Shown: one piece after another, positions 4,932 through 39,826 of the stretch | Position numbering within the stretch: position 1 is the stretch's first letter | Layout of the letters: every line of letters starts with the position of its first letter | Source of the DNA: Aneurinibacillus uraniidurans | Lineage (GTDB): Bacteria; Bacillota; Bacilli; Aneurinibacillales; Aneurinibacillaceae | Assembly: GCF_028471905.1 (NCBI RefSeq) | Contig: NZ_CP116902.1 | Location: 5,001 to 69,000, forward strand | Direction of reading: 5' to 3' | DNA: 64,000 nt | The notes under the pieces: model-generated | What the model was told of the DNA's origin: nothing | The model's input: the letters and a program-made list of their open reading frames with translations, nothing else | Database searches by the model: none | Program-made: the position numbers and the translations under genes

Positions 4932-6074
4932 CTATTGGTTGGTTCGAACAGGAAGGATCAGGTGTAAGATCCAGTCATGATCGGTTGGGCGAATAATAAA
5001 TGGACTCATGGCACCCGTAAATCCAATTCGAATCTCGGCACTATCTACTACTCGAAGCGAATCGATCATGTATTTTGCATTGAACGAAATTTTCACATCT
5101 TCACCTTCCATGGAAGATGGAACAATTTCTTCTGTCACCGTACCGACTTCCGGGATGTTGGATGAAATCTCGATTACACCATCCGGACGTGTAAACAGGC
5201 GAACAACATTATTTTTTCCATCCCTTGCTAACAAGCTTGCCCGTTCGATTGCTCCGAGAAACTCTTTTGTGGATAAAATCATTTCTGTTTTCATATGTTG
5301 TGGAATGATTCGGCTTGTATCCGGATATGTTCCATCAAGAATACGAGAGTAAAACAAAATATGGTTTACTTTCGCAAGAATCTGATTATCCGTAATTACG
5401 ATATCAACCAGTTTATCATCATCTGAGAGAATTTTACTTAATTCAAGTAAGCTTTTTCCTGGAATTACAACATTATGAAAACTAAGTCCTTCTGCTGATT
5501 CTACCGCTGCCTTGCGCGTAGTTAAGCGATGGCTGTCAGTTGCAACAAATGTTAATTCTCCGTTTTCAAGGCTCCACATGACTCCCGTTAAAATAGGCCG
5601 TGTTTCTGTTGTTGCAACCGCAAATACGGTTTGTCGAATCATTGTTTTCAACAGATCAGCTGGCATACTTAAAACTTGATTCTCCTCAATTTGTGGAAGA
5701 CGCGGATAATCCTCCGCATTCATTCCATTCAAATTAAATTGAGATCTTCCTGAAGAAATCGTTGTGACAAACCGGTCATGTACAGAAATGGTTACTTGTT
5801 CTCCCGGAAGCTTCTTAACGATTTCTCCTAGAAAACGAGAGGGAAGTACAATGCTGCCAGGGGTTATATTTTCGATCCATTGGTGTTCACCAGATTCAGC
5901 TGGAATATACTGTTCAATCGAAATGTCAGAATCACTAGCTGTTAATATAATGCCATCCTCATGAGCAACAATTTTGATACCAGTCAATATTGGAATTGTT
6001 GTACGTGAGGAAACAGCTTTGCTTACTGTGGTAATAGCATGTGTAAATTGGTCTCTTTGAATCGTAAATTCCAT
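4932..6074 (-). CDS. dnaN: DNA polymerase III subunit beta (sliding clamp)
   Basis: Processivity clamp that encircles DNA and tethers PolC and DnaE. 380 residues with three clamp repeats, starting MEFTIQRDQFTHAITTVSKA and ending in the hydrophobic-pocket strand FIIRPTDHDWILHLILPVR. The ATG at 6074 follows AAGGAGG. It sits directly after dnaA with the unwinding part of the origin between them. Confidence 0.97.
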   Translation of the reverse strand: MEFTIQRDQFTHAITTVSKAVSSRTTIPILTGIKIVAHEDGIILTASDSDISIEQYIPAESGEHQWIENITPGSIVLPSRFLGEIVKKLPGEQVTISVHDRFVTTISSGRSQFNLNGMNAEDYPRLPQIEENQVLSMPADLLKTMIRQTVFAVATTETRPILTGVMWSLENGELTFVATDSHRLTTRKAAVESAEGLSFHNVVIPGKSLLELSKILSDDDKLVDIVITDNQILAKVNHILFYSRILDGTYPDTSRIIPQHMKTEMILSTKEFLGAIERASLLARDGKNNVVRLFTRPDGVIEISSNIPEVGTVTEEIVPSSMEGEDVKISFNAKYMIDSLRVVDSAEIRIGFTGAMSPFIIRPTDHDWILHLILPVRTNQ

Positions 6075-6264
6075 TGTAGCCTCCTTGGAATGTTAAATGT
6101 ACATTCTACATACACTTATATTTTATACTCTTTTAAATACTAGTAGTAATAGGGGCGGTGGATATGTGCATAAGTAGCGATAGAGTAAAGAAATACAGCC
6201 TATACACATGTGGATAAGCTTGTGTACAGGCTGTAGCTGTTATTTTCATTTATACACAGATCGA
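6075..6264. other. oriC downstream half: unwinding region with DnaA-trio-like repeats
   Basis: The 190-base dnaA-dnaN spacer has an AT-rich stretch (6105-6140). It is followed by TAG TAG TAA TAG in register (6141-6152), a GC-rich block GGGCGG (6153-6158), a degenerate box GGTGGATAT (6157-6165), a perfect DnaA box TGTGGATAA (6209-6217) and a one-mismatch box TTATACACA (6250-6258). The order AT-rich / trios / GC / DnaA box is that of the basal unwinding module described in B. subtilis. Assignment as the melting site is inference from that similarity. Confidence 0.75.
6195..6234. repeat. Inverted repeat with a DnaA box in its loop
   Basis: ACAGCCTATACACA (6195-6208) is mirrored by TGTGTACAGGCTGT (6221-6234) with one mismatch. 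The loop is TGTGGATAAGCT and holds a perfect DnaA box. On the minus strand it follows dnaA, but only a weak T run comes after it, so it could be a poor terminator or part of the origin architecture. Confidence 0.75.
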
Positions 6265-9619: not shown

Positions 9620-10368
9620 ATCAGGTAACGGCAACGGGAAAAACAGTCGAAGATGCGATTCGTGTAGCGCTTGCTCAGTTGAATGCTAAGCGAGAAGATG
9701 TGAATTTTCGTGTGCTAGAGGAGCCAAGTAAAGGTTTTTTTGGCTTGATCGGAGTACGGCAAGCAAAGGTAGAAGTCACATTGGTAGAAAAAGAGGTGGC
9801 GAAAGAGATTTTGTCATCAGAAGAAGCGCACCCTGTTAGTGAACCATTGCCGGAACCTGAAAAGCTTGAGAAATCGGAAGAAACTCCGGTTTTAGAACAG
9901 GAAAGTCCTGCATTGGATATTGATCCGATTCAACAGGGACGAGCGTTTCTAGAAGAAATGTTAGCTGCAATGGAGATCAAAGCGGATATTCAGCTATCAG
10001 TTAAGCAGGGTACACCTGTTATCACGATTTTGGGTAAAGGCCTTGGTTTACTCATTGGACGACATGGGCAGACACTTGATTCCATTCAGTATTTGGTAAA
10101 TATTGTGGCGAATCGGAATGCGACAAAAAAAGTTCGTATTATAATTGATGCAGAAAATTATCGTCAGAAGCGGAAAGAGTCACTCGAGCAGATGGCGGAA
10201 CGGATGGCCAATCAAGTAATACGTACGAAAAAAGTAGTGCGGCTTGAGCCAATGGGCCCGACCGAACGTAAAGTTATTCACAGCCGCCTGCAAAAACATT
10301 CGCAGGTGCAGACATACAGTGAAGGAACAGAACCGTACCGTCGGGTCGTAATCGCGTTGAAAAAGTAA
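9616..10368 (+). CDS. jag: RNA-binding protein Jag/KhpB (SpoIIIJ-associated)
   Basis: 250 residues: an N-terminal Jag domain (ATGKTVEDAIRVALAQL, EEPSKGFFGLIG), an acidic Glu/Pro-rich linker (about 75-105), a KH domain with GRHGQTLDSIQYLVN and a C-terminal R3H domain (MGPTERKVIHSRLQ). KH and R3H bind RNA. GTG at 9616 after AAGGAGG. It overlaps yidC by four bases, so the two are translationally coupled. Confidence 0.94.
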   Translation: MNQVTATGKTVEDAIRVALAQLNAKREDVNFRVLEEPSKGFFGLIGVRQAKVEVTLVEKEVAKEILSSEEAHPVSEPLPEPEKLEKSEETPVLEQESPALDIDPIQQGRAFLEEMLAAMEIKADIQLSVKQGTPVITILGKGLGLLIGRHGQTLDSIQYLVNIVANRNATKKVRIIIDAENYRQKRKESLEQMAERMANQVIRTKKVVRLEPMGPTERKVIHSRLQKHSQVQTYSEGTEPYRRVVIALKK

Positions 10369-10387
10369 ACATAGTGATTATCCACAG

Positions 10388-10418
10388 CCCCCTCTCGTAC
10401 TAGAGAGGGGGTTTTTTT
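10388..10418 (+). terminator. Terminator after jag
   Basis: CCCCCTCTC / GAGAGGGGG with a 6-base loop and seven Ts. It ends the rpmH-rnpA-yidC-jag unit. Confidence 0.93.
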
Positions 10419-10446
10419 GTCAAATATTCATAGAGTATGGTATTCT
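10417..10446 (+). promoter_or_regulatory. mnmE promoter
   Basis: TTGTCA (10417-10422), 18-base spacer, TATTCT (10441-10446), directly after the jag terminator and 55 bases before mnmE. Both boxes deviate by one or two bases from consensus. Confidence 0.55.
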
Positions 10447-10500
10447 ATACATTTAGGGAAAGCTTTAAAAAAACATGTCTTTACTGAGTGGTGACATATA

Positions 10501-11877
10501 ATGATGGATTTCGATACAATTGCAGCGGTTGCTACGCCACTGGGCGAAGGTGGGATTGCCATTATTCGTGTGAGTGGACCGCAGGCTGTAGAAGCTGTGG
10601 ATAAAATTTATAAAGGGCGACACAAGTTGTTAACTGTGGATACCCATACGATTCATTACGGCCACCTTGTGGATAGTGAGGGGGACGTACTGGAGGAAGT
10701 GATGGTGTCTGTTATGCGGGCGCCGCGTACATTTACTAGGGAAGACGTAGTAGAGATTAACTGTCATGGCGGGATTGTTTCGGTGAAGCGAGTGCTTGAT
10801 CTTGTTCTTGAACAAGGGGTAAGGATGGCAGAGCCAGGTGAGTTTACAAAACGTGCATTTTTGAACGGACGAATTGACCTTTCTCAGGCGGAAGCGGTCA
10901 TTGATTTAATTCGTGCAAAAACAGATAAAGCCATGAAGGTCGCGCTGCATCAGGTTCAGGGCAAATTATCCCTTCTGATTGAAGATTTGCGCCGTCAATT
11001 AATTGAATTAATGGCGCATATTGAAGTCACCATTGATTATCCAGAGCATGACGTAGATGATGTGACACGTAATCTCCTGTCAGAGAAGAGCCGCTGGGTA
11101 CAGGAAGAGATTGAGAAGCTGTTGCGTACCGCTAAGCAGGGGAAAATCCTCAGGGAAGGTTTATCAACCGTTATTGTTGGGCGACCGAATGTTGGGAAGT
11201 CCTCGCTGTTAAATAGCTTGCTGCAGGAAGTCAAGGCGATTGTCACAGACATTCCAGGGACAACCCGTGACATTATAGAGGAATACGTCAACGTACGCGG
11301 CATTCCGCTTCGACTTGTTGATACGGCTGGCATTCGAGATACAGAAGATATTGTGGAGCGAATCGGTGTCGAAAAATCGCGGGAAATGTTGAGTAAAGCA
11401 GATCTCGTGCTGCTTGTGTTGAATTATGGCGAAGAGTTAACCGAAGAAGACCGGAACCTGCTGCAGGTCGTTCAACCGATGAACGCCATTATCATTGTGA
11501 ATAAGGTAGACTTGCCACAGCGTATTGACCTGAGTGACGTTCAGCAGATGGTCGGTACTATGCCTATAGTGATGATGTCGATTGCTAAGGAAGAAGGAAT
11601 TGAACGATTGGAAGAAGCGATTGCTAGTAAATTCTTCTCTGGTTCGATTCAGAGTGATGATCTTACGTATGTGAGTAATGCCCGCCATATTCAGCTGCTG
11701 CGAGAAGCTTCTCAGGTGATTGGGGAAGCGATTGAGGCAGTGGAAAGTGGTCTGCCTGTTGATATGGTTGCATTCGATATTCGGCGCACATGGGAATTGC
11801 TTGGCGAGGTAATTGGTGATACCGTAAGTGATGACCTAATCAGTCAGATCTTTGCACAGTTTTGTCTCGGCAAATAG
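10501..11877 (+). CDS. mnmE: tRNA uridine-5-carboxymethylaminomethyl(34) synthesis GTPase MnmE
   Basis: With MnmG it modifies the wobble uridine (cmnm5U34) of several tRNAs. N-terminal tetrahydrofolate-binding domain ([22 protein letters not shown]), helical domain, an inserted G domain with [13 protein letters not shown] and NKVD motifs, and the C-terminal catalytic FCLGK. 458 residues. Tandem ATGs at 10501 and 10504 follow GGTGA; the first is used here. Confidence 0.97.
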
Positions 11878-35253: not shown

Positions 35254-36019
35254 AGCCAAAACCATTCTGATTCTAACGTTTTTGCTTCTGGATTTGTTCC
35301 TTGGCTATCAAATCATTTATAGCTACAACCGTGACCGTGCAGGGATGCCGCAGGGGGAACTGATTCCTTCTAGTATGGAGGAATTACTACAGTCTCGTCA
35401 TATCAAATTGACAGTAGATATTCCATCTGGAACACCAGAAATGTATTACATGTACGTAAAGTTTACCGGATTTTCTGCGCATCTGGCACGGCTTACCGGA
35501 CAATCAGAAACGGAAAGCCAGGGAAATGGTGTGATTGTTACGTTTGATGGTCCGCTTCTCGTTCCTAATTCGGAGGATCGAGTGGATTTGCTGAAGGTTA
35601 TGGAACCGTATGTCCCTTTTGCACGTGAATATGTCTATGATACTCGTTCTAGTAGCGCGTACACGGCCCACTATGTCCAAACGTATCAGCGTTATCCGCT
35701 ATTCAGTGTGCCTATGGATATTAGAGTGAAAGGAAGCCGGGTATTCGGTTATAGCCAGACACATGTTCAGATTATTAGCCAGGGAAATGGTCGCCGGGTC
35801 ATCCCGGCACTAACAGCTGTTCGAACATTGCTTGATAATGGTTATATCCGATACGGGGAATCGATCTCTGATATTTCGATTGGTTATTACGGTCATATGT
35901 ATGATGCAGACATTCAAGTGCTTGCTCCTGTCTGGCGGATTGTTCACACGAATGGCATGCAATATGTAAATGGAATTACTGGGGCAATTGAACAAATTCA
36001 GGCACTTGAAAAAAAATGA
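35240..36019 (+). CDS. walI: Two-component system regulator WalI (YycI)
   Basis: 259 residues: N-terminal helix (TILILTFLLLDLFLGYQIIY) and an extracellular YycI domain. The ATG at 35240 has GAGGTGA five bases upstream and overlaps walH by 14 bases; a GTG at 35222 is less likely. Works with WalH on WalK. Confidence 0.9.
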   Translation: MDWSKAKTILILTFLLLDLFLGYQIIYSYNRDRAGMPQGELIPSSMEELLQSRHIKLTVDIPSGTPEMYYMYVKFTGFSAHLARLTGQSETESQGNGVIVTFDGPLLVPNSEDRVDLLKVMEPYVPFAREYVYDTRSSSAYTAHYVQTYQRYPLFSVPMDIRVKGSRVFGYSQTHVQIISQGNGRRVIPALTAVRTLLDNGYIRYGESISDISIGYYGHMYDADIQVLAPVWRIVHTNGMQYVNGITGAIEQIQALEKK

Positions 36020-36070
36020 AACATCCCTAATAATAATTGAGTATGAAAGAGGTAGGGAAGCGAGGAAGCT

Positions 36071-36868
36071 ATGAAATTCAGTGTATTAGCCAGTGGGAGT
36101 ACAGGGAATTCTTTTTATATTGAAGGAAAAAGTGGGAAAGTATTGGTCGATGCAGGCTTAAGCGGCAAGCAGGTTGAGAAATTGCTTACGGAAGTAGGAG
36201 CGGATGCGTCGGAGCTTGATGCCATTCTCATTACACATGAGCATTCTGACCATATTAAAGGAGTCGGAGTGCTGGCCCGTCGCTATCAGCTTCCGGTGTA
36301 TGCGAACACTAAAACATGGGAGCAGCTAGATCGCCAGCTAGGAACGCTTGCGGAAGATCAGCGCAAGCTTATGGAGGCGGGAGAGACGATTGATTTTGGC
36401 ACGATGAAAGTCGAATCATACGGTATATCACATGATGCGGCCGAGCCGATGGGATTTTGTTTTCATGAAGAAGATGCCAAAGTCAGCCTGACGACCGATC
36501 TTGGGTATGTCAGTCAGCGTATTAAAGACACGGTGCGTGGATCAGATGCTTACATTTTTGAAGCGAACCATGATGTTGAGATGCTGCGTATGGGAAGCTA
36601 CCCGTGGAACACGAAGCGCCGCATTTTGAGTGATGTGGGCCATTTGTCCAACGATACGGCAGGGGAAGCTCTGACTGAGATTTTGGAGGGAAAAGGAGAG
36701 ACGGTGTACTTGGCACATCTGAGCAAAGAAAACAACATGACGGAGTTGGCACGTCTGACTGTGAAAAACATTCTGGAGGAAAGCGGGTTTCATGATGGAA
36801 CTCATGTCCAGCTAAAAGACACATCCCCCATTCATCCTACTGCCATGCAGGAGATTATTCGTAAATAA
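36071..36868 (+). CDS. walJ: MBL-fold hydrolase WalJ (YycJ)
   Basis: 265-residue metallo-beta-lactamase-fold protein, FSVLASGSTGNSFYIEG and the metal motif ITHEHSDHIKGV, with later His/Asp ligands (SHD, TTDLGY, FEANHD, LAHLSKENN). YycJ has been described as a DNA 5'-3' exonuclease in some bacilli. ATG at 36071. Sits in the wal operon. Confidence 0.94.
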   Translation: MKFSVLASGSTGNSFYIEGKSGKVLVDAGLSGKQVEKLLTEVGADASELDAILITHEHSDHIKGVGVLARRYQLPVYANTKTWEQLDRQLGTLAEDQRKLMEAGETIDFGTMKVESYGISHDAAEPMGFCFHEEDAKVSLTTDLGYVSQRIKDTVRGSDAYIFEANHDVEMLRMGSYPWNTKRRILSDVGHLSNDTAGEALTEILEGKGETVYLAHLSKENNMTELARLTVKNILEESGFHDGTHVQLKDTSPIHPTAMQEIIRK

Positions 36869-36894
36869 GAGTACGTACAGAAAGGAGCAGTCAT

Positions 36895-38106
36895 ATGAGT
36901 TATTACGATGAGGAGCACAAAGATACACGGCGTACAGGCGGACGCGGTTCAATTTTTTTCACCGCGCTAATTTCTTCTATTATTGGCGGCCTGATCGTGT
37001 TAATGCTGGTACCGACATTGCTTAAGTCCGGTTATTTACCAGGTTGGGGTGCACAGTCACCAAATGGGGATAACACAGCAAATTTGCCAGGCCCAACAGC
37101 TAATTATTCAGTTAATGTAGATACGGCAGTTACGAAAGCTGTACAAAAAGTAGAAAATGCAGTTGTAGGTGTTATCAATATTCAAAGTACACAAAACTTT
37201 TTTGGACAAGTAAAAGAAGGAGAAGCGGGTACTGGTTCCGGTATCGTATTCCGTAAGGCCAATGGTAAGGCATATATTGTAACGAACAATCATGTGATTG
37301 AAGGGGCGCAGCGTGTACAAGTATCGCTGACTACAGGAGAGAAGTACATTGATGCCCGTGTTGTTGGACAGGATGCTTTAACCGACTTGGCAGTACTTGA
37401 AATTGATGGCTCTAAAGTAACACAAGTAGCAGAGTTCGGAAGTTCCTCTGCATTAAAAGTCGGGGAACCAGCAATTGCGATTGGAAATCCTCTTGGTTTG
37501 AAATTCTCTCGTACCGTTACAGAAGGGATTATTAGCTCGACTGAGCGTACGATGCCAGTTGATCTTAATGGAGATGGAGAACCAGACTACGAGACGAACG
37601 TACTACAGACAGATGCAGCAATTAACCCGGGTAACAGCGGGGGAGCGCTTGTGAATATTGCTGGACAGGTTATTGGGATTAACAGCTTGAAAATATCGAA
37701 AGCTGGTGTCGAGGGCTTAGGATTCGCGATTCCGATTGACGATGCGAGCAAAATCATTGATGATTTGATTAAATATCATACGGTACAGCGTCCGCAGTTG
37801 GGAATCATCCCGATTGATCTACAGGCAGTGCCTACCGACGCTTGGAAAGATCCACTTAAGCTTCCAGACTCAGTGAATAGTGGTGTTGTCGTGAAAGATA
37901 CACCGGCACTTCTTCCAGAAAACAAGGGCGGATTGAAGAAATACGATGTGATCGTAGCGATCGATGGTCAGAAGATCGAAAATCAGGCACAGCTCCGCAA
38001 ATATGTGTTTAAGAAAAATGTTGGAGATACAGTGAGAGTAACTGTCTATCGCGATGGTAAGCAGCAAACAGTAAATGTAGTGCTGTCTAAGCAGCAGAGT
38101 TCCTAG
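36895..38106 (+). CDS. htrC: HtrA-type serine protease (S1C family)
   Basis: 403 residues: membrane anchor (FFTALISSIIGGLIVLMLV, about 21-40), trypsin-like domain with the triad His (TNNHVIEGA), Asp (LTDLAVLEID) and Ser (NPGNSGGAL), then one PDZ domain. Quality control of extracytoplasmic proteins. Last gene of the wal operon, matching yyxA/htrC of B. subtilis. ATG at 36895 after AAAGGAG. Confidence 0.92.
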   Translation: MSYYDEEHKDTRRTGGRGSIFFTALISSIIGGLIVLMLVPTLLKSGYLPGWGAQSPNGDNTANLPGPTANYSVNVDTAVTKAVQKVENAVVGVINIQSTQNFFGQVKEGEAGTGSGIVFRKANGKAYIVTNNHVIEGAQRVQVSLTTGEKYIDARVVGQDALTDLAVLEIDGSKVTQVAEFGSSSALKVGEPAIAIGNPLGLKFSRTVTEGIISSTERTMPVDLNGDGEPDYETNVLQTDAAINPGNSGGALVNIAGQVIGINSLKISKAGVEGLGFAIPIDDASKIIDDLIKYHTVQRPQLGIIPIDLQAVPTDAWKDPLKLPDSVNSGVVVKDTPALLPENKGGLKKYDVIVAIDGQKIENQAQLRKYVFKKNVGDTVRVTVYRDGKQQTVNVVLSKQQSS

Positions 38107-38110
38107 GGAG

Positions 38111-38153
38111 AAACGAGTGCGAGCGCACACGCGTCTATTCGCACTCGTTTTTT
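38111..38153 (+). terminator. wal operon terminator
   Basis: AAACGAGTGCGA / TCGCACTCGTTT perfect 12-base stem with a 16-base loop and T run. Confidence 0.92.
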
Positions 38154-38220
38154 GTGCTGTCTGGGCGTATAGTTGACAGGAACATACGACATAATGAGGG
38201 TGAAAACAGGAGGAATGAAA

Positions 38221-38436
38221 ATGTTAAGCGCGGAAAAAAAGCAGTATCTTGAAGAAGGCGGCCAGAATTTTATTGTATGTGATGAAGAACATATGGAAGT
38301 AGCGCTTGATGAATTTGTAGATGAGTTTGAAGAAGCGCCGGATGTGGTATTGCTTGAGCAAGAAGTATTCCATTCCTGGAACAAACCTGTAAGCTGCCGG
38401 TACTGTGGACAAACACCGAAGTACTTACTTGTATAA
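38221..38436 (+). CDS. CxxH/CxxC family protein
   Basis: 71-residue acidic protein, MLSAEKKQYLEEGGQNF ... CDEEH ... CRYCGQTPKYLLV. The CDEEH and CRYC pairs fit the small CxxH/CxxC family found between htrA and rlmH in Bacilli; a zinc site is likely, function unknown. The ATG at 38221 is seven bases after AGGAGG; the ATG at 38215 is too close. Confidence 0.85.
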   Translation: MLSAEKKQYLEEGGQNFIVCDEEHMEVALDEFVDEFEEAPDVVLLEQEVFHSWNKPVSCRYCGQTPKYLLV

Positions 38437-38610
38437 ATTGGTTTCCCACAAAAGTAAACAAGATATAGAGAAAATGGTGCTGTGGATTGTTGATAACTTG
38501 TTGGTAAAACCCTGTGTATTACAAATTATTCTTGTTAACAACTGCATTCTTCTTGAAAAAATCCTGTAATACCAAGGATTTTTATTGGATAGTGAAACTT
38601 ATATATTCAC

Positions 38611-38650
38611 AAAATGAGGTTATCCACACCTGTGTATAACCTCATTTTTT
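38611..38650. repeat. Hairpin built from two opposed DnaA boxes
   Basis: 18-base arms, 38611-38628 and 38631-38648, with one mismatch. They contain a perfect DnaA box TTATCCACA (38620-38628) and an inverted near-box TGTGTATAA (38631-38639), followed by a T run. It could be a terminator, a DnaA-binding site or both. The rest of the 38437-38701 spacer shows no gene. Confidence 0.75.
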
Positions 38651-38701
38651 TCGGGGATAAGTATACGAAAGAGTTTGAAAAAAGTGAAAGGAAAATAAGT
38701 T

Positions 38702-39181
38702 ATGCACATTGCCATTATATCGGTTGGTAAACTAAAAGAGAAATATTTGAAGCTGGGGATTGAGGAATATGCGAAGCGGTTGTCTGCGTATGCGAAGATT
38801 GATTTGGTAGAAGTGGCGGATGAGAAAGCACCGGAGAATCTGAGTGTGGCGGATATGGAGCGTGTAAAGCAGAAGGAAGGCGAGCGGATTCTGGCTGCGC
38901 TGAAGTCAGATCAGCATGTGGTAGCACTGGCGATTGACGGGGAGATGTGGTCGTCGGAGAAGCTGGCACAGAAGCTAGATCAGTGGGCGACATATGGGAA
39001 GAGTTCGGTTGCGTTTGTGATCGGTGGCTCGCTCGGGTTGTCAGATGCGGTGATGAAGCGAGCGGATGAGAAGCTGTCGTTTTCGAAGATGACGTTTCCT
39101 CATCAACTGATGCGGATGATTTTGCTGGAGCAGGTGTATCGAGGGTTTCGGATTAATCGGAATGAACCTTATCACAAATGA
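38702..39181 (+). CDS. rlmH: 23S rRNA (pseudouridine(1915)-N(3))-methyltransferase RlmH
   Basis: 159-residue SPOUT methyltransferase ([48 protein letters not shown]). Modifies helix 69 of 23S rRNA. ATG at 38702. In staphylococci this gene (orfX) carries the SCC attachment site in its last codons; here conserved synteny stops exactly at its stop codon. Confidence 0.97.
39162..39181 (+). other. SCC-type attachment-site copy 1 (rlmH 3' end)
   Basis: ATGAACCTTATCACAAATGA covers the last codons of rlmH. The core TATCAnAAATGA is like that of the staphylococcal SCC site (TATCATAAATGA). A second copy matching at 18 of 20 positions lies at 42257-42276 in the same orientation. Confidence 0.7.
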
Positions 39182-39194
39182 CACAAATAAAAGA

Positions 39195-39222
39195 TCGCAA
39201 GACCTCCTAGGAGGTCTTGCGA
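39195..39222. repeat. Perfect 28-base palindrome
   Basis: Arms TCGCAAGACCTCCT / AGGAGGTCTTGCGA with no loop, 13 bases after the rlmH stop. No T run on the plus strand; a weak TCTTTTATTT on the minus strand. Confidence 0.9.
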
Positions 39223-39271
39223 CAATAGTCAAAAATGCGAGACTATCTGTACTAGTTCTGGTTTGTTACTA

Positions 39272-39508
39272 AGTTTTGCTGCTGTAAGGTACTTGTCCAT
39301 CTTGACGCAGCTATTCCAAGATGATTGGTTTAACGGATTCAATTACTGGTTTCGGCTTTGGTTTGGAAAGCTTGTATACAGGAACTTTTGTTGTTGTTAA
39401 GGCTTTACGTATGACTTGCCGAGAATATCCTGTCTCTCTAGAAATTTGACGAATCGACTTTCCAAGAAAGAAGCAATTCAGCCATCCCAAGGATACAAGG
39501 TCAACCAA
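39272..39508 (-). pseudogene. IS21-family transposase (IstA) N-terminal remnant
   Basis: A helix-turn-helix segment, GKSIRQISRETGYSRQVIRKAL, typical of the IstA N-terminus. An in-frame TAG (39311-39313) follows, then a short further in-frame run (LRQDGQVPY) to another stop at 39269. The catalytic DDE domain and istB are absent. The residues before GKSIRQ (VSLGWLNCFFL) look altered from the normal helix. Confidence 0.6.
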
Positions 39509-39511
39509 TGA

Positions 39512-39826
39512 TTAGGATTGTGCCTTATTTGTTTGAACATAAAATAATTTTTGAAGCTTTAAAACACAAAATTTTATTGAGCGTTTTACATAGAGCGAAC
39601 ACTTTATTAGAAGGAAAGAAACAACAAGTGATAATGGAATACTTAAAGAGACAGGGAGATCAATGCCATGCCAAATACTCATTTTGATTTGTTCAAAACC
39701 GAGAGTTCGCAATATACCAGCAAGTAGTGAGATTAACGCACTCAATACTAACCCTGCGTACAGGACGGATAGGACAGGGATTGTTAGCGAGATCAAAAAA
39801 GTGCAAATCATTTTTTTTATTTTCAT
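39512..39826 (-). CDS. Small membrane protein, unrecognised
   Basis: 104 residues with two to three hydrophobic segments (MICTFLISLTIPVLSVLYAGLVLSAL split by polar residues; LPVSLSIPLSLVVSFLLI) and a basic C-terminal tail (KRSIKFCVLKLQKLF). The ATG at 39826 overlaps the stop of the upstream gene (TAATG), so translation is coupled to the bactofilin-like protein. I do not recognise a family. Confidence 0.6.
   Translation of the reverse strand: MKIKKMICTFLISLTIPVLSVLYAGLVLSALISLLAGILRTLGFEQIKMSIWHGIDLPVSLSIPLSLVVSFLLIKCSLYVKRSIKFCVLKLQKLFYVQTNKAQS

Follow-up and report, generated by a model that had tools for sequence, protein, structure and literature searches.

A DnaA-box cluster upstream of rlmH in Aneurinibacillus uraniidurans that probably doubles as a terminator-like hairpin

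The window analysed here, a 64-kb stretch of the genome of Aneurinibacillus uraniidurans (genome G000 in our comparisons), contains dnaA and dnaN and, at higher coordinates, the gene order HtrA-type protease, yyzF and rlmH (Table 1). We take yydA of B. subtilis to be rlmH, and an HtrA-type protease presumably neighbours yyzF in Bacillus as well. In the interval between yyzF and rlmH, 174 nt behind the yyzF stop codon, lies a hairpin with two 18-base arms separated by positions 38629-38630. Each arm is made up in equal parts of a DnaA box and an outer arm (AAAATGAGG in the 5' arm, CCTCATTTT in the 3' arm). A sequence-only reading of the window had described two opposed DnaA boxes, one perfect and one near-perfect, in hairpin arms ending in a T run about 30 kb from oriC. 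This description was confirmed: the element spans 38611-38651 and ends in seven Ts (T7), TTATCCACA is a perfect box and TTATACACA differs from it by a single mismatch. The box cluster upstream of dnaA, presumably part of oriC, is located at about 7.7-8.1 kb, which places the hairpin approximately 31 kb from the presumed origin. Downstream of rlmH, a short minus-strand ORF (39311-39508) yielded a weak match to IS21-type transposases (25.8 bits vs. a cut-off of 160) and is perhaps a remnant of such a gene.

Table 1 Genes, DnaA boxes and hairpin parts in the window, and box clusters elsewhere in the genome. Positions refer to the window unless a contig or locus is named.
Feature	Position	Strand	Remarks
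dnaN	4932-6074	-	TIGR00663
dnaA-dnaN cluster	6165-6258		three boxes between the genes
dnaA	6265-7623	-	TIGR00362
trmE cluster	10274-10676		jag/trmE (mnmE) junction, into trmE start
HtrA-type serine protease gene	36895-38106	+	5' of yyzF; every match under its curated cut-off
yyzF, CxxH/CxxC protein	38221-38436	+	TIGR04129, PF14116 YyzF
DnaA box TTGTCCACA	38404-38412	-	within yyzF 3' end
DnaA box TTATCAACA	38488-38496	-	same-strand box at -211 to -215 in 10/11 family genomes
Weak box ATATTCACA	38603-38611	+	2 mismatches; TATTCAC here in 7/11 family genomes
5' hairpin arm	38611-38628	+	outer arm AAAATGAGG and DnaA box TTATCCACA
DnaA box 1 TTATCCACA	38620-38628	+	perfect; first of opposed pair
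DnaA box 2 TTATACACA	38631-38639	-	second of opposed pair; start 11 bp past box 1 start
3' hairpin arm	38631-38648	+	box 2 and outer arm CCTCATTTT
T7 run	38645-38651	+	terminator-like tail of hairpin
Weak box TTATCCCCG	38652-38660	-	2 mismatches
DnaA box TTATGCACA	38700-38708	+	overlaps rlmH start codon; exact in 9/11 family genomes
rlmH (yydA), 23S rRNA pseudouridine-1915 N3-methyltransferase	38702-39181	+	NF000985, TIGR00246 (NCBIfam)
ywlC cluster	G000:C1:208131-208734, outside window		three TTATNCACA boxes before ywlC-type gene (TIGR00057); gene match from 208763
sda cluster	L141 1436-1524 = G000:C1:1324509-1324597		three DnaA boxes directly before sda (PF08970)
gcp (tsaD) cluster	L142 1449-1543 = G000:C1 ~3449327-3449421		six boxes in ~95 bases directly downstream

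RNA folding of the hairpin (41 nt) gave -17.8 kcal/mol with a z-score of -6.5, a value equalled by none of 200 shuffles, and -22.7 kcal/mol (z -5.1) for a stretch of 71 nt. The predicted stem is A+T rich and consists of 16 pairs and a single internal C/U mismatch, which falls on the degenerate position of the DnaA box. Box 2 fully matches TTATNCACA, the consensus quoted in PMC4447404, and the opposed pattern TTATNCACA-N0-6-TGTGNATAA occurs at four sites in the 3.85-Mb genome vs. none for the reversed control pattern, indicating that the opposed pair did not arise by chance. The pair is embedded in a wider cluster of five DnaA boxes with at most one mismatch (38404-38708), on which the sequence-only reading was silent. 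Boxes of this quality are more numerous than expected in the whole window including oriC (51 vs. 18.9), and the interval holds several boxes, more than expected by chance.

Comparison within the family showed that the boxes and the outer arms differ in conservation. All 11 family genomes have the opposed pair, the first box being located at -80 to -87; nine of them have at most one mismatch per box and two have two mismatches in one box. In contrast, nine complementary outer pairs together with T7 are present in just two genomes, that of the window and its nearest relative (G005), which also share a gap of 2 bases between the boxes, as opposed to 3 bases in the remaining nine. These counts suggest, from sequence comparison, that the boxes arose before the hairpin. 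A recent origin of the hairpin may be too simple a picture, since a member of another genus of the family (G009) has three outer pairs, an unbroken 11-pair stem of -14.3 kcal/mol and a T-rich tail, and may thus form a terminator-like hairpin as well; the other eight family genomes have 0-4 outer pairs. Many of the columns invariant in the 11 genomes lie in the boxes, in the box at the start codon and in GGGGATAA, which directly follows the hairpin, at the weak box TTATCCCCG, and has seven invariant columns and one nearly so. Some conserved columns between hairpin and rlmH match no box, and the outer arms contain a single near-invariant column, the first base past box 2. The DnaA boxes before rlmH are more strongly conserved than the flanking outer arms of the hairpin.

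A comparison of the window's genome with its nearest relative shows differences in 4 of the 18 outer-arm positions, in 2 of the 18 box positions and in 47 of 241 positions of the surroundings. The outer arms thus change at nearly the rate of their surroundings, yet all nine pairs are kept, as the four changes make up two compensated pairs. Had four changes been placed randomly, pairing would have been kept with a probability of 0.0013 (Watson-Crick pairs) or 0.0069 (G-U allowed) in this one comparison of two sister species. Both changes in the boxes affect the degenerate fifth base, and the mismatch at this position persists in both genomes. Given the compensated pairs, the hairpin itself appears to be under selection; its most likely role between the two genes is that of a terminator, either full or partial.

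For a broader comparison, 61 genomes were searched for rlmH; 59 matched, of which 50 were examined and the nine weakest matches left out. A further set comprised named loci, the best 80 of at least 581 confirmed matches (588 stretches), all 80 of which were counted. Boxes with at most one mismatch were counted in a 462-bp stretch spanning the start of rlmH (450 bp before it and 12 bp inside the gene; 424 bases for L097), with equally long stretches downstream of rlmH and within rlmH as controls. The 50 genomes, in which the rlmH start is possibly 3 bases off in a few reverse-strand loci, gave 181 boxes around the start vs. 11 downstream and 6 in the gene, and the best 80 of the at least 581 named matches gave 386 vs. 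23 and 7. Shuffled upstream stretches contained 8.75 and 17.7 boxes, respectively (means of 20 rounds). Both totals keep two duplicates, without which the 130 loci are reduced to 128 distinct ones. At least three boxes around the rlmH start were found in 87 of these 128 (including the best 80 of at least 581), compared to a mean of 0.15 loci and never more than one per round in the shuffled sets, and we regard the cluster as conserved in related genomes. The other 41 of the 128 loci, again with the best 80 of at least 581 included, have fewer than three boxes and count against the reading favoured below. Among the best 80 named loci of at least 581, boxes around the rlmH start are absent from all four of Brevibacillus (L085, L090, L094 and L101), both of Paenibacillus (L122 and L138), three of Halobacillus and one of Oceanobacillus. 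In another locus with zero boxes, L109 of a Peribacillus sp., a cluster sits farther upstream, at about 450-770 bases. Of the 128 loci, 22 contain opposed boxes separated by a gap of 0-7; 16 of these 22 have at most two outer pairs, and solely the window's genome and its nearest relative have more than five (all three counts including the best 80 of at least 581).

The same interval is a known target of DnaA in B. subtilis. According to PMC4447404, the yyzF-yydA interval belongs to a group of eight prominent DnaA-binding regions; it is listed as number 8 among the top regions bound by DnaA in vitro ('upstream of yydA; downstream of yyzF'), with seven sites and an apparent Kd of 0.16 uM for ATP-DnaA. 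PMC13220808 also mentions eight regions and credits them to Ishikawa 2007. The yyzF-yydD (yyzF-yydABCD) operon is apparently repressed directly by DnaA, according to PMC4447404 and PMC8203912. The cluster described here likewise has several DnaA boxes and lies in the identical yyzF-yydA (rlmH) interval. It differs from the B. subtilis-type region in that its opposed pair is framed by nine complementary outer pairs and followed by T7. Five named Bacillus loci (mojavensis, halotolerans, glycinifermentans, stratosphericus and pumilus; B. subtilis itself not included) have an opposed pair with a 2-bp gap, 0-2 outer pairs and at most four Ts in any 8 bases directly past the pair. The sequence-only reading had proposed that rlmH expression may be linked to DnaA, a proposal that gains support by orthology to the B. 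subtilis region with its published in-vitro binding and apparent repression (PMC4447404).

Further clusters are present in this genome. The comparison covered seven of the eight regions of PMC4447404 (all but ywcI/vpr), and by gene neighbourhood each of the seven has a counterpart among the clusters found here. The gcp/tsaD cluster resembles the B. subtilis gcp/ydiF region, and the jag/trmE cluster is the counterpart of the trmE DnaA region. Opposed TTATNCACA pairs with a gap of 0-6 were found at only four places, namely in the dnaA-upstream cluster (oriC), before rlmH, upstream of sda and downstream of gcp/tsaD; in the sequences of the oriC, sda and gcp pairs, five or more Ts directly after the pair are absent. 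The sda gene is flanked by a ComM/YifB-like ATPase gene upstream and a sucC-like gene downstream, presumably unlike in B. subtilis. In E. coli, datA and DARS are likewise DnaA-box clusters that lie away from oriC and affect how much DnaA is available, and their defining features are IHF/Fis sites and an effect on the DnaA nucleotide state; the likeness drawn here refers to box clustering alone. The sequence-only reading also raised titration of DnaA, which the clusters as a set could plausibly bring about: as reported in the review PMC5295017, which cites Okumura 2012, deletion of six non-origin clusters in B. subtilis led to early initiation, strong only when all six were gone.

The remaining suggestion of the sequence-only reading was transcription termination. 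As in Rho-independent (intrinsic) terminators, a stable hairpin is directly followed by a T run, and its stem was kept by compensatory change, i.e. two compensated pairs in two species. Unlike in such terminators, a DnaA box makes up half of each arm and a mismatch interrupts the A+T-rich stem; termination here is predicted. A consensus scan for terminators did not list the hairpin, and a looser scan for hairpins followed by T runs placed it, at -16.2 kcal/mol, approximately 19th of 127 in the window (both strands), which also counts against a terminator. The suggestion is supported mainly for this lineage, where nine outer pairs and T7 occur in two of 11 genomes and a shorter version in a third, and the sequence-only interpretation as a whole is partly supported. 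The distance of 174 nt from the yyzF stop is far for a simple yyzF terminator and counts against our favoured reading, as does the promoter scan, which found no plus-strand promoter-like site between hairpin and rlmH. The sole plus-strand candidate of the interval (38535-38562, 9/12, TG before the second hexamer) lies upstream of the hairpin, in a scan (36000-39600) that gave 7 sites vs. 7.0 in shuffles. Transcription of rlmH from a start upstream of the hairpin would place the latter in the leader of rlmH; a partial terminator that allows read-through would in that case be as likely as a full one.

Is the element then simply an ordinary intrinsic terminator of yyzF, with DnaA boxes in its arms by coincidence? 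The stable hairpin with T7 and the compensated outer arms would fit, but the opposed boxes are far more widespread in the family than the outer pairs and T7, the interval contains additional boxes, and box clusters are again found ahead of rlmH in distant genera; we consider this explanation quite improbable. The opposite view, a pure DnaA site at which the hairpin is a by-product of opposed boxes and transcription does not end, would agree with the many opposed pairs that have few or no outer pairs and with the result of the consensus scan. It is nevertheless unlikely, as nine pairs located outside the boxes survive four substitutions and T7 is found in both species. A separate structured RNA, e.g. 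a riboswitch or small RNA, would account for the conserved intergenic stretch and for some conserved non-box columns between hairpin and gene. Against it, Rfam searches of 38100-39300 gave just two matches up to E 1 (E 0.58 and 0.68), both far below the gathering scores, by which a riboswitch or known small RNA was rejected, and we regard this possibility as highly improbable.

We favour, as the probable explanation, that the element is the rlmH (yydA) DnaA-box cluster, the counterpart of the B. subtilis high-affinity region, which doubles as a terminator-like hairpin in this lineage. DnaA would most likely bind at least five boxes from the end of yyzF to the start of rlmH, including the opposed pair with its boxes about one helical turn apart. 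Bound DnaA would hold down transcription into rlmH, and the cluster would sequester some of the DnaA close to the origin. In this lineage, the sequence flanking the opposed pair presumably turned complementary and acquired a T run, whereby the same bases would form an RNA hairpin resembling an intrinsic terminator after yyzF. The DnaA region studied in B. subtilis is now extended to other genera, and the locus is a concrete example of bases that apparently have two roles, as protein-binding sites at the DNA level and as the stem of a terminator at the RNA level. This dual use makes a control of DnaA over termination testable. In titles and the beginnings of abstracts (subscription journals being mostly outside reach), no DnaA-box terminator or rlmH hairpin was named. 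In a DnaA-gated terminator, a DnaA roadblock would slow RNA polymerase as the box hairpin forms, and the DnaA level would tune read-through from yyzF to rlmH. We give this idea little credence; if true, it would link an enzyme of rRNA modification with the replication cycle.

In two further loci, L053 and L056, rlmH is preceded by 8 and 9 boxes, respectively. We take their RlmH to be of staphylococcal look; rlmH is also called orfX and is the gene into which SCC elements insert.
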